From NCBI RefSeq assembly GCF_041206865.1, contig NZ_JBGEDP010000001.1, positions 372,001 to 436,000 of the forward strand: a stretch of DNA of 64,000 nucleotides, given 5' to 3'. Each line of letters starts with the position of its first letter. Position 1 is the first letter of the stretch. Both the position numbers and the translations under genes were made by a program. The notes below the pieces were generated by a model that saw only the letters and a list, made by a program, of their open reading frames with translations, had not been told where the DNA came from and did no database searches. Shown here one piece after another: positions 44,228 to 61,229 of this stretch. The stretch comes from Mycobacterium sp. HUMS_12744610. Its GTDB lineage: Bacteria > Actinomycetota > Actinomycetes > Mycobacteriales > Mycobacteriaceae.

Positions 44228-44275
44228 GTCGGGGTGGCGGGATTCGAACCCACGGCCTCTTCGTCCCGAACGAAG
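44228..44275. repeat. attL: 48-bp copy of the tRNA-Pro 3' half
   Basis: Direct repeat of 61182-61229, identical at 47 of 48 positions (difference at 44255 versus 61209). It covers the tRNA from the anticodon stem to the 3' end, so it is the tRNA end displaced when the element inserted. The intact tRNA is at the right end. Confidence 0.92.
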
Positions 44276-44301
44276 GGGTCATCTGCCGACCTGGTACTTG
44301 T

Positions 44302-44323
44302 CTGTACTGGATAGCCTGTACGG
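44302..44323. promoter_or_regulatory. Left-end TGTAC sites
   Basis: CTGTACTGGATAG (44302-44314) and CTGTACGG (44316-44323) resemble the TGTACNGATTG sites at the repressor promoter (59362-59392) and before 53128. They may be operators of the element's XRE repressor or binding sites for integration proteins. The remaining bases of 44276-44485 hold no gene, only these sites and the 18-base repeat. Confidence 0.4.
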
Positions 44324-44400
44324 AACCGATAGACAGGCAGGTGAGGGCACCTTTCCCCGATCCCGTCTGTCCAATGAATCCAAGGAATACCAAGAGTCCT

Positions 44401-44418
44401 GACACGCACCAGACACGC
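44401..44418. repeat. 18-bp terminal repeat, left copy
   Basis: GACACGCACCAGACACGC occurs here and again at 61093-61110 in the same orientation. Each copy holds two tandem (A/T)GACACGC units. One lies about 125 bases inside attL and the other about 70 bases inside attR, which suits arm-type sites for the integrase. Confidence 0.55.
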
Positions 44419-44485
44419 GGCACCGGCGACATGTCACGTCCCCTACCTCGCACGGAACGCCGGTGTGGTGCGGTGGAATGGGTCT

Positions 44486-44788
44486 GTGACCGAGCACGAC
44501 CTGGACGCGCTCCTCGCTGACATCACGGCGCTGGAAGCCGACGACGACCTCGATACCTTCCCCTGGACGGACGCGGCGCGGTGGACTCCGCCCGAGCCCG
44601 CGCCCGCGCCCGCACCACGACCACGACCACGCCGCCGCACGCGGGCACCTCGTACAGGGACGGTGTACGGGCGTGGTTACGTGCCGATGCCGCCCGACGA
44701 CGCGCTCGACCGAATCACCGATCCGGGCGGTCTGACCATCGACGGCGAGCGGTACGCCGCGCTGCTGCGGGAGTACGGCACGCCCTGA
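44486..44788 (+). CDS. Hypothetical protein, acidic N-terminus and Pro/Arg linker
   Basis: Protein of 100 residues from GTG 44486 (GTG 44465 would add seven). An acidic helical start (TEHDLDALLADITALEADDD) leads to a Pro-Ala-Arg linker near residue 35-55 and a globular-looking tail with GRGYVPMPPDDALDRI and IDGERYAALLREYG. I do not recognise it. It is the first plus-strand gene inside the left end of the element, opposite in direction to the large operons. Confidence 0.55.
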   Translation: MTEHDLDALLADITALEADDDLDTFPWTDAARWTPPEPAPAPAPRPRPRRRTRAPRTGTVYGRGYVPMPPDDALDRITDPGGLTIDGERYAALLREYGTP

Positions 44789-44847
44789 CCTGCGCGTATC
44801 TACGTCCCCGCGCGGCGGTGTCGGTGGGCTGGTGCACGATTCGGACT

Positions 44848-45247
44848 ATGAATACGAAACAGATCGACGCCCTCGTCATCCACGCCGTGTCATGCCTCGC
44901 GCCGCGCCCCGCGCCCCTTGACCCAGACGTGTTCTTGTACCAGCGCATCGCGGGCGGCTACGTAGAAGCGGTGTACGGGCAGACGGCGGCGGGGGAGCGT
45001 GCCGTCTTCTACGTCCACGAGGACGGGATACGGCTCGGGCTACCACTCAACCGCACGGCTACGCGGCATGTGGCACACCTTGAACCCGGCGGTGTTCGTC
45101 CCCTTGTTCGGGAACGTCATCGTGGTCGGGGTGGACGGCTGCGAGGACGCCAGCGTGCCCGAGGGCGTGGTGGACGCGGCACTCACGGCGCACTGCGAGG
45201 TCGAGATAACGGGATGGTTCGAGCGCATCCGCGCCGCGCACGGCTAG
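44848..45247 (+). pseudogene. Hypothetical protein, frameshifted
   Basis: The first frame starts at ATG 44848 (MNTKQIDALVIHAVSCLAPR) and stays convincing to VHEDGIRLGLPLN near 45050. The second frame continues with WHTLNPAVFVPLFGNVIVVG and ends IRAAHG at 45247. Together they would give about 133 residues, so a one-base change near 45050 has split the gene. No family is recognised. It could be a sequence error, a true lesion or programmed frameshifting; I see no slippery heptamer. Convergent with the ESX-like operon. Confidence 0.5.
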
Positions 45248-45284
45248 GCGTCTGACCAGCGCATGTGGTCGTCCCCGCGCGGTG

Positions 45285-59306: not shown

Positions 59307-59348
59307 GTTGTCTGTTCCTGTCTGTATCGTTTGGACTGCCTGTTTTGT

Positions 59349-59400
59349 ATAGTAGCACGGCTTGTACGGATTGTGGTTTCCTGTACAGATTGGATAGAGT
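59349..59400. promoter_or_regulatory. Divergent promoter/operator of repressor and excisionase
   Basis: Minus strand TACTAT (59349-59354) is a -10 box for the excisionase side, and GATAGAGT (59393-59400) for the repressor side, just before its ATG. Between them are TTGTACGGATTG (59362-59373) and CTGTACAGATTG (59381-59392), 19 bases apart and so on nearly the same helical face. This is the expected switch of a temperate element. Confidence 0.55.
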
Positions 59401-59406
59401 GATGAC

Positions 59407-59934
59407 ATGACAGACGCGGACGACCGGGCACTCGGGGCGGTGATTCGACGCCGCCGGGCGGCGCGGGGGCTCACTCAGCAGGCGATGGCGGAGAGACTTG
59501 GTATGTCCCCTGTCGTGTACGGACGGGTCGAGCTGGGCAACCGCCCGGTGCGTGCTGTTGAACTGCGCGACATCGCCCGCACGTTGGGCGTTCCGATGGA
59601 TGACCTTGTGCGAGAAGTCGATCCGATCACCGCCGAGGAGATGGTCGAGCGCGCGGTCGCCCTGCGAGACACCGCACATCGCGCCCTGCGGGAGTACGCC
59701 TCTGTCGTGGTCGATGCCGTCGCCGCCGTGGACGAGTCCGACCACGGAGCCCTGGTAGACGACGAGCCGCTCACCGACGCCGACGACCTGGCGGAGTACC
59801 TGGCGCGGATGCCGCAGTTCGCGGGACTCACCGCGCCCGCCGACCTAGTGCCCATTCTGCGCCGAGCGCTCACCGACCTCGCGTCGTCCGTCCCTCTGTA
59901 TGTGTCCACGGAATCGGAGGAGTGCGATGGCTGA
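59407..59934 (+). CDS. XRE-family repressor
   Basis: Protein of 175 residues. N-terminal HTH_3 domain: AVIRRRRAARGLTQQAMAER, GMSPVVYGRVELGNRPVRAV and a helix ending GVPMDDL (residues 10-68). The C-terminal part is acidic and helical, without a LexA-type peptidase motif, so induction would not be by self-cleavage. ATG at 59407 lies 6 bases from a -10-like box, so the mRNA is nearly leaderless. Overlaps the integrase start by 8 bases. Confidence 0.85.
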   Translation: MTDADDRALGAVIRRRRAARGLTQQAMAERLGMSPVVYGRVELGNRPVRAVELRDIARTLGVPMDDLVREVDPITAEEMVERAVALRDTAHRALREYASVVVDAVAAVDESDHGALVDDEPLTDADDLAEYLARMPQFAGLTAPADLVPILRRALTDLASSVPLYVSTESEECDG

Positions 59935-61120
59935 CCAACGCCGCCGGGCGGGTGCTCACATCGAGGACACGTGGAAGTACAAGGACGGAAAGCCCAAGCC
60001 GCGCAACGGGATCGGGAAACGCTGGCGCGTCGTTGTCATCGGGCTGGACGGGAGCCGTTCAGGCGAGCATTTCGACCGGAAGGTGGACGCGGAGACCTAC
60101 CGCGATGCCGTCAAGAACAGTCTCACCACGGGGACGTACGTCAATCCGAGGGCAGGACTCGTCACCGTCGCGGACGTGTGGGAGCAGTATCTCTCGCACC
60201 AGAAGCCCGGCGGAACTCGGGAGCGGCGCGTGTCGGGGTGGAACGCATGGGTGTCCCCTCGATGGGCAAACGTCCTCGTGCGCGACGTGCAACGGTCGGC
60301 GGTCAAGGCGTGGATCGTGGACATGGGCAATGCGGGGGCGACCGCGACCACCATCGAGAACGCGATGGAGGTGCTGCGCGGCATTCTGACCGTCGCCGTC
60401 GAGGACAAGCGCATTGCGGCGAATCCCGCTGCGGGACATAAACTTCCCGCGCGCACCGAGCCACCCAAGGTCTACCTCTCCCATGAACAGGTCTGGGTGC
60501 TAGCCGACGCCATCGACCCGCGCTACCGCACGCTGGTGCTGTTCCTGACGTACACCGGGCTGCGATTCGGAGAAGCCGCCGCGCTGGAGGTCCAAGACCT
60601 GAACCTGCTGCGGCGACAAATACACGTCCGGCAACAGGTCACCGAGGTATCCGGTGTCCTCACGTGGACACCGACCAAAGGCAAGCAGGCGCGGCACGTT
60701 CCTCTGCCGTCGTTCCTCGTCGAGCCGTTGAGCGTGGAATGCCAAGGGCGGCAGCGTGCCGACGCGGTGTTCACCGCCCCGCGCGGCGGCACCCTGCGCC
60801 TGAACACGTGGCGGAACCGGTACTGGAACCCGACCATCGAGGGACTACGAGAAGCGGGCGAGTTCCCCGACGCGACACCGCACGACCTGCGGCACACAGC
60901 GGCGTCCCTGGCGGTGCAGGCGGGAGCGAATGTAAAAGTCCTCCAGACCATGCTCGGGCACAAGAGCGCGACCCTGACCTTGGACACGTACGCCGCGCTG
61001 TTCCCGGAAGACCTCGCGGACATCGCCGCGCGCTTCGACGCCGCCGTCGCACGACTGGGGACATCCGCAAAAACGCCCCGTTCTATTCTCCAGACACGCA
61101 CCAGACACGCAGACCGCTAA
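59927..61120 (+). CDS. Tyrosine integrase
   Basis: Site-specific recombinase of 397 residues that joins the element to tRNA-Pro. N-terminal arm-binding domain (AP2-like, about 30-75), SAM-like core-binding domain (80-170) and catalytic domain with R213 (TGLRFGE), H319 and R322 (PHDLRH), the GHKSATLTLDTY block and nucleophile Y355. ATG 59927 has GGAGGAG upstream. The C-terminal codons contain one of the 18-bp terminal repeats. It ends about 60 bases from attR, followed by a terminator. Confidence 0.95.
   Translation: MADQRRRAGAHIEDTWKYKDGKPKPRNGIGKRWRVVVIGLDGSRSGEHFDRKVDAETYRDAVKNSLTTGTYVNPRAGLVTVADVWEQYLSHQKPGGTRERRVSGWNAWVSPRWANVLVRDVQRSAVKAWIVDMGNAGATATTIENAMEVLRGILTVAVEDKRIAANPAAGHKLPARTEPPKVYLSHEQVWVLADAIDPRYRTLVLFLTYTGLRFGEAAALEVQDLNLLRRQIHVRQQVTEVSGVLTWTPTKGKQARHVPLPSFLVEPLSVECQGRQRADAVFTAPRGGTLRLNTWRNRYWNPTIEGLREAGEFPDATPHDLRHTAASLAVQAGANVKVLQTMLGHKSATLTLDTYAALFPEDLADIAARFDAAVARLGTSAKTPRSILQTRTRHADR
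61093..61110. repeat. 18-bp terminal repeat, right copy
   Basis: Same bases and orientation as 44401-44418, here inside the last codons of the integrase gene. Candidate arm-type binding site. Confidence 0.55.
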
Positions 61121-61135
61121 CGTGCCCTCAACAAG

Positions 61136-61177
61136 AAACCCGCCCCGTCCTGTTCTCGCAGGTCAGAGCGGGTTTTT
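61136..61177 (+). terminator. Rho-independent terminator of the integrase gene
   Basis: AAACCCGC pairs with GCGGGTTT around a 24-base loop and is followed by five T. It lies between the integrase stop and the tRNA-Pro 3' end and prevents antisense reading through the tRNA. Confidence 0.75.
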
Positions 61178-61181
61178 CCTT

Positions 61182-61229
61182 GTCGGGGTGGCGGGATTCG
61201 AACCCACGACCTCTTCGTCCCGAACGAAG
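61182..61229. repeat. attR: 48-bp repeat within tRNA-Pro
   Basis: Right-hand partner of 44228-44275. The crossover must fall within the shared block; the single difference at 61209 divides it into 27 and 20 identical bases. The element supplies this copy and so restores the tRNA. Confidence 0.92.

Follow-up and report, generated by a model that had tools for sequence, protein, structure and literature searches.

Actinomycete integrative and conjugative elements (AICEs) of the pSAM2 type have an integrase, an excisionase, an attachment (att) site in a tRNA gene and a single DNA pump of the FtsK/TraB type. Here we describe an element that resembles them in each of these respects and is found in a 64,000-nucleotide stretch of the genome of Mycobacterium sp. 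HUMS_12744610 (the window, to which coordinates refer unless another locus is named). It occupies positions 44228-61229 (17,002 bp), is integrated in a tRNA-Pro gene between 48-bp direct repeats, and carries beside its transfer genes a cassette for proteins that resemble substrates of ESX (type VII) secretion systems. AICEs have been called few in Mycobacteriaceae (PMC8190616, PMC7478629), and those described in mycobacteria use serine recombinases in all but one case (PMC3218068), unlike the present element, which has a tyrosine integrase. Chromosomal transfer in M. smegmatis requires ESX-1/ESX-4, and plasmids of the pRAW type (Ummels et al.) require both type IV and type VII secretion system (T4SS and T7SS) loci (PMC12857230). 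An integrative and conjugative element (ICE) with one T4SS and two T7SSs has been described (PMC7478629). The linear plasmid pCLP is without a T7/4SS locus (PMC12803027), and hence an element-borne ESX is not universal in mycobacterial transfer. A preliminary description of this DNA stated that no system of such a make-up was known. We likewise found none in the open-licence literature that joins an FtsK/TraB-type element to EspB-like proteins without an ESX core, although T7SS-dependent plasmid conjugation (PMC12857230) and a T7SS-bearing ICE (PMC7478629) have been published.

Our interpretation, to which we assign a probability of about one half, is that this is an AICE-like element with a type-VII-type module, the proteins of which are exported by a resident ESX system and aid the passage of the envelope or the pairing of cells. 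The preliminary description had already proposed that the element is AICE-like, has a pump of its own and encodes ESX-substrate-like proteins but not the ESX core, and this much stands, whereas a separate operon for the cassette and the EspC-like nature of the protein at 51751-52197 had to be given up. Its two suggestions for the function of the cassette, use of the host ESX or a block of it, keep the rank of inference. The element differs from AICEs in its cassette of EspB-like, zinc-protease and dead-NlpC genes. A comparison element in another genome (G086, L096/L097), which has a pump, an integrase and tRNA-Arg copies at both ends, shows no cassette match, and neither does a stretch with a pump and an integrase in genome G044 (L094).

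The borders of the element are given by the att repeats. At attL (44228-44275) the 3' end of tRNA-Pro is duplicated over 48 bp, and attR (61182-61229) lies within the tRNA-Pro(CGG) gene itself (61182-61256, minus strand). Both copies match the 3' end of tRNA-Pro(CGG) and differ from each other by one mismatch over 48 bp, the initial 27 bp being exact. The G+C content of the element is 65.8%, and that of the kilobases of the window outside it is 66-78%. The host genome comprises 6.4 Mb in three contigs (C1, C2 and C3). The right flank of the element is matched by 76 of 78 genus genomes, and the tRNA-Pro core together with right-flank sequence is present in all 19 loci examined in other genomes. 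The full integrase gene occurs in none of these 19 loci, one of which (L104) contains a 69-bp partial match. Because the left flank of the window was also found near the tRNA-Pro in only one of the 19 (L110), this evidence for an empty site is partial. A 22-bp near-identical repeat (95%) lies inside each end of the element, at 44397-44418 and 61089-61110, and these two copies are possible integrase arm sites.

The genes for integration, regulation and transfer that had been named previously are all recognizable. The tyrosine integrase (59900-61120, plus strand) matches PF00589 (1.5e-23) and phrog_1 (2.3e-66), and codon usage favours its start at 59927. An XRE-family regulator (59407-59934, plus strand; HTH_31, 1.2e-13) corresponds to the proposed repressor. 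An excisionase-like helix-turn-helix (HTH) protein, xis (59076-59306; phrog_66, 1.6e-10; HTH_17, 2.1e-9), opens an array of 19 open reading frames (ORFs), all on the minus strand, that runs leftward from 59306 down to 45285, from xis to the pump and on to the ESX-like cassette. With the starts implied by the coordinates given here, the gaps in this array measure -14 to 132 bp. Codon usage supports 18 of the 19 ORFs, missing the one at 52919-53128, and favours shorter starts for the ORFs at 49857, 53212 and 54464, with which three of the gaps would widen. As the array is continuous from xis through the pump, the cassette is not the separate operon that had been suggested; it runs on from the transfer genes, the largest gap being 132 bp.

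The pump (55159-57090) matches phrog_1358 (4.4e-26), FtsK chains (5.5e-5) and the NCBIfam plasmid TraB model (4.5e-10, far under the curated cut-off), and in this sense it is the FtsK/TraB-type transfer protein of an AICE. It also matches the EccCb (6.2e-5) and EssC (2.6e-4) models, weakly and far under their cut-offs, as FtsK-superfamily ATPases do. Of 198 related genomes, 15 have a pump match at E ≤ 1e-10, its own included. The ORF adjoining the pump (54464-55162) encodes 232 aa and reached the cut-off of no family in Pfam and PHROGs scans. In four elements a protein of this type, at 38-41% identity, is the immediate neighbour of the pump (the window, genome G400, genome G474 at 4.13 Mb, and Mycolicibacter icosiumassiliensis), and this conserved position makes it a candidate pump partner.

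The part of the cassette that bears most directly on type VII secretion is an EspB/PPE-like protein with a long low-complexity tail (50555-51742). Its match to EspB_PPE (7.1e-5) was under the cut-off in one scan and at the cut-off in another, and EspB gives the best matches in a PDB profile search. PPE and EspB chains head the VIA structural list for its predicted model, with ambiguous helical-bundle scores; families missing from that list are not thereby excluded. The predicted fold, a PPE/EspB-type helical domain at the N-terminus, is of the helical, T7SS-like kind on which the preliminary description had staked its proposal. Profile similarity and the tail likewise place the protein close to the EspB/PPE superfamily, whereas its identity to EspB chains is 13-17% and its gene belongs to a mobile element, in the company of a DNA pump.

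The hairpin proteins are less certain. The 148-aa product of 51751-52197 is a probable helical hairpin without a T7SS family match in Pfam and NCBIfam scans, and the EspC-like label that it had received was dropped for this reason. A weak EspC likeness (0.14) does exist in the C-terminal, EspC/WXG-like hairpin region of a 273-aa protein (48609-49430). The profile of this protein matches hairpin genes in the elements of G400 (2.1e-9) and M. icosiumassiliensis (3e-6). Among the 198 related genomes it was found in its own genome only, and a large protein search returned three proteins, itself included.

Two further members of the cassette resemble enzymes. The lipoprotein encoded at 49857-50567 resembles zinc metallopeptidases, as had been noticed before, with an HEVGH motif and a downstream E..ADC. 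HExxH is present in 6/6 aligned homologues, together with the downstream E..A(D/E)C, and Pfam and NCBIfam family models match below cut-off. The 621-aa product of 46726-48591, which we refer to as the NLP protein, consists of a helical-type N-terminus, a GGGMP linker and an NlpC/P60-like domain. The domain has no cysteine in any of 40 aligned relatives (44 were found, of which four weaker ones were omitted from the alignment) or in any of 38 in a wider set. Hence, the protein is not a cysteine peptidase, and a working NlpC/P60 cysteine hydrolase was rejected.

As the preliminary description had maintained, no ESX apparatus was detected in the element. In tblastn searches of five pump/EspB-like stretches there was no match to eccA, eccB or eccC, all three of which were recovered in the control L062, and Pfam scans found no T7SS core family among the scanned element ORFs. 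EspG and VirB4 queries also gave no matches, the control L062 included, and thus had no positive control. In the host, eccB occurs at six loci, of which C1 carries four and C2 and C3 one each.

Relatives of two of the cassette proteins are encoded close to plasmid ESX loci. Upstream of eccA-eccB-eccC, pCBMA213_1 of Mycolicibacterium and two plasmids of M. intracellulare carry genes for proteins of ~100 aa and ~340 aa, an NLP-family gene and a transglycosylase-like gene. In a profile comparison, the EspB-like protein matches the plasmid protein of ~340 aa at Prob 98.2 (E 3.8e-14). The NLP proteins of the element and the plasmids match along their length at Prob 100 (E 1.7e-49) over 535 columns, the two alignments having no rows in common. 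A control comparison (A3 vs A4) gave no match (Prob 0.15). A tblastn search of the plasmids with the EspB-like protein gave none. In these homologues the element resembles the ESX-P/T4SS plasmids of the pRAW type and ICEMyc226. However, these carry an ESX core (PMC7478629, PMC12803027, PMC12857230), whereas in the element neither eccA/B/C nor VirB4 gave a match, the VirB4 query being without a positive control. The homology of the two cassette proteins to ESX-adjacent plasmid proteins favours the borrowing of an ESX for transfer.

The same homology could also belong to a satellite, the cassette of which would be exported solely by the ESX of a co-resident plasmid (here C2 or C3), so that the mating apparatus of that plasmid and not a chromosomal ESX would be used. 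The eccB loci of C2 and C3 agree with this, as does a block of pump, EspG, NLP and transglycosylase genes on C2. However, in a tree of the NLP domain (121 columns) the forms from the window, L028, L030 and L064 split from seven ESX-P forms at a branch supported by 94/93, and we consider a satellite unlikely.

The preliminary description had called for a search for the same gene set in other genomes, and this search was productive: a pump together with an EspB-like gene recurs at tRNA-Arg, at tRNA-His and at three places in G474. Of 396 genomes, 10 were matched by the EspB-like profile at E ≤ 1e-6. The window, G400 and two places in G474 supply the strong loci (E < 1e-20); seven further genomes matched at E 1.7e-11 to 7.4e-7, and L028 and L030 came from a separate search. 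Genes in the loci of relatives were called with our own codon-usage script. The G400 element has 37-bp repeats at 14175 and at a tRNA-Arg (39104), and a tyrosine integrase. Its pump, 54464-type, small HTH, hairpin, EspB-like and zinc-lipoprotein genes follow the relative order of the window on a single strand, and no NLP match was found in it. In M. icosiumassiliensis (L028; G476), 23 bp of the tRNA-His sequence are repeated at 3449072, right behind an integrase, and the two copies enclose ~51 kb. That element contains a pump (41% identity over 533 aa), 54464-type, EspB-like, zinc-lipoprotein, hairpin and NLP genes, the pump and the cassette being 22 kb apart on opposite strands. In G474, distances of 8.1, 14.1 and 18.9 kb separate the pump from the EspB-like match in the three pairs, the members of which lie on opposite strands, and the 8.1-kb pair depends on a weak EspB-like match (1.9e-9). 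Altogether, a pump lies no more than 23 kb from the EspB-like gene in 6 of 7 loci considered, mostly on opposite strands outside the window. In the seventh, L030, there is no pump within the 10-kb flanks, which are all that was covered.

This proximity bears on the possibility that the cassette is cargo for surface or entry exclusion or for interference, where exported ESX-like proteins would jam or alter the host ESX and block rival plasmids or distributive transfer. The lack of an own ESX fits such a function, and NLP-family genes are often found without a pump. Matches to this family at E ≤ 1e-10 occur in 39 of 396 genus genomes (low-complexity linkers may inflate some of them), and of 28 NLP loci seven have ecc matches and five have no ecc match but a pump-like ATPase, while the stretch examined shows neither in the other 16. 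In addition, near the related cassette of Mycolicibacter acidiphilus a WXG-Ntox44 toxin gene comes after a WXG100 gene (L030:15500-16956). However, the nearby pump in 6/7 loci means that transfer fits better than random cargo, and the window cassette contains no toxin domain recognized in Pfam scans. We therefore regard cargo as a rather improbable explanation.

If the element is AICE-like and served by a resident ESX, its transfer might proceed as follows. The integrase and excisionase would excise it from the tRNA-Pro, and the FtsK/TraB-type ATPase would move what is presumably double-stranded DNA across the inner membrane. The cassette, probably co-transcribed with the transfer genes, would supply a module of the EspB/PPE-like protein, EspC/WXG-like hairpins, the zinc-protease lipoprotein and the dead-NlpC/P60 protein, the domain of which perhaps binds the wall. 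A resident ESX, either chromosomal or on C2 or C3, could export these proteins, and they may then help the DNA to pass the wall and the outer membrane or help the cells to pair. PPE substrates have been localised to the outer membrane, across which they could mediate passage (PMC10597459), and EspB assembles into pore-like heptamers but adheres to lipid without embedding in it (PMC10140165).

Some features that this interpretation would lead one to expect were not found. The hairpin and PPE-like proteins have no conserved YxxxD/E signal, as T7SS substrates should, and no WxG; the latter motif occurs once each in 49427-49855, 52194-52916 and 53212-54477. Unlike in AICEs, Pfam and PHROGs scans of the ORFs, several of which are without any family, recognized no Rep gene. 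A more far-reaching proposal is a conjugation type of its own, free of a relaxase and a T4SS, in which DNA driven by the TraB pump would exit through an element-encoded EspB/PPE-type conduit and the resident ESX would be parasitised only to install this conduit; we think it doubtful. The locus bears on the passage of FtsK/TraB-type elements through the mycobacterial wall and outer membrane, and a 17-kb element, with a pairing of genes that recurs at different integration sites, offers a tractable test of whether ESX delivers envelope proteins for DNA transfer.

A phage satellite or degraded prophage, with the helical proteins as tail or capsid parts, would also have an integrase, an excisionase and a repressor, and the pump and xis do match terminase-type PHROGs weakly. 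However, these were the sole head/packaging matches, and none of 10 scanned cassette-side proteins matched a structural PHROG. Relatives of the NLP protein were absent from 2.9 million viral contigs in a pattern scan and from 50,697 phage records in a tblastn search. Phage tail or capsid homologues, which according to the preliminary description would have overturned its proposal, were thus not found among the proteins scanned against PHROGs. With neither a structural PHROG nor viral relatives of the NLP protein, a phage origin was rejected as highly improbable.

The remaining ORFs of the array are mostly small. Two tiny paralogues (58933-59079 and 58669-58809; 53% identity over 45 aa) adjoin xis. 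They are followed by a small protein without a family at cut-off (58232-58588) and a 221-aa protein without a family match (57556-58221), both assessed by codon usage and by PHROGs and Pfam scans, and by a small protein with a hydrophobic N-terminus that adjoins the pump (57094-57423). On the other side of the pump, the product of 53212-54477 has 421 aa, with an MC...GG.RC motif at its N-terminus and a long tail of low complexity. Proteins with an MC start, then G-rich and RC residues, recur in mycobacterial mobile regions (L030:13572-15419; L078:719-1747 and 3822-4862; G476 C2 3445696-3446541). The ORF missed by codon usage (52919-53128) possibly encodes a small HTH protein, and a weak alignment indicates that a small HTH-like ORF precedes the EspB-like gene in other cassettes too. 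A protein with a hydrophobic, transmembrane-like segment by hydropathy is encoded at 52194-52916, and a 142-aa protein at 49427-49855 has a relative in L030 (2e-9). Leftward of the NLP gene there are a 349-aa WXG100_2-like protein with a low-complexity tail (45650-46699; 0.01, below cut-off) and a 122-aa protein, assessed by codon usage and a PHROGs scan, which closes the array (45285-45653).

Blocks of an FtsK pump, EspG, an NLP protein and cell-wall proteins were also seen on the M. dioxanotrophicus linear plasmid NZ_CP020813.1 (L092/L093) and on C2 of the host (L082). The former includes C40 genes and the latter transglycosylase/C40 genes, and no ecc match was seen in the 50 kb covered of NZ_CP020813.1, which is 69.9 kb long. 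These blocks are similar to the element in bringing together a DNA pump, an NLP-family protein and cell-wall proteins, but they differ in their EspG, C40 peptidases and an ATP-binding protein (VirB4-like by our label), and their pumps are distant from that of the window (24% over 199 aa for C2). Also of note is a selenocysteine tRNA gene at 28361-28455 of the window, outside the element.

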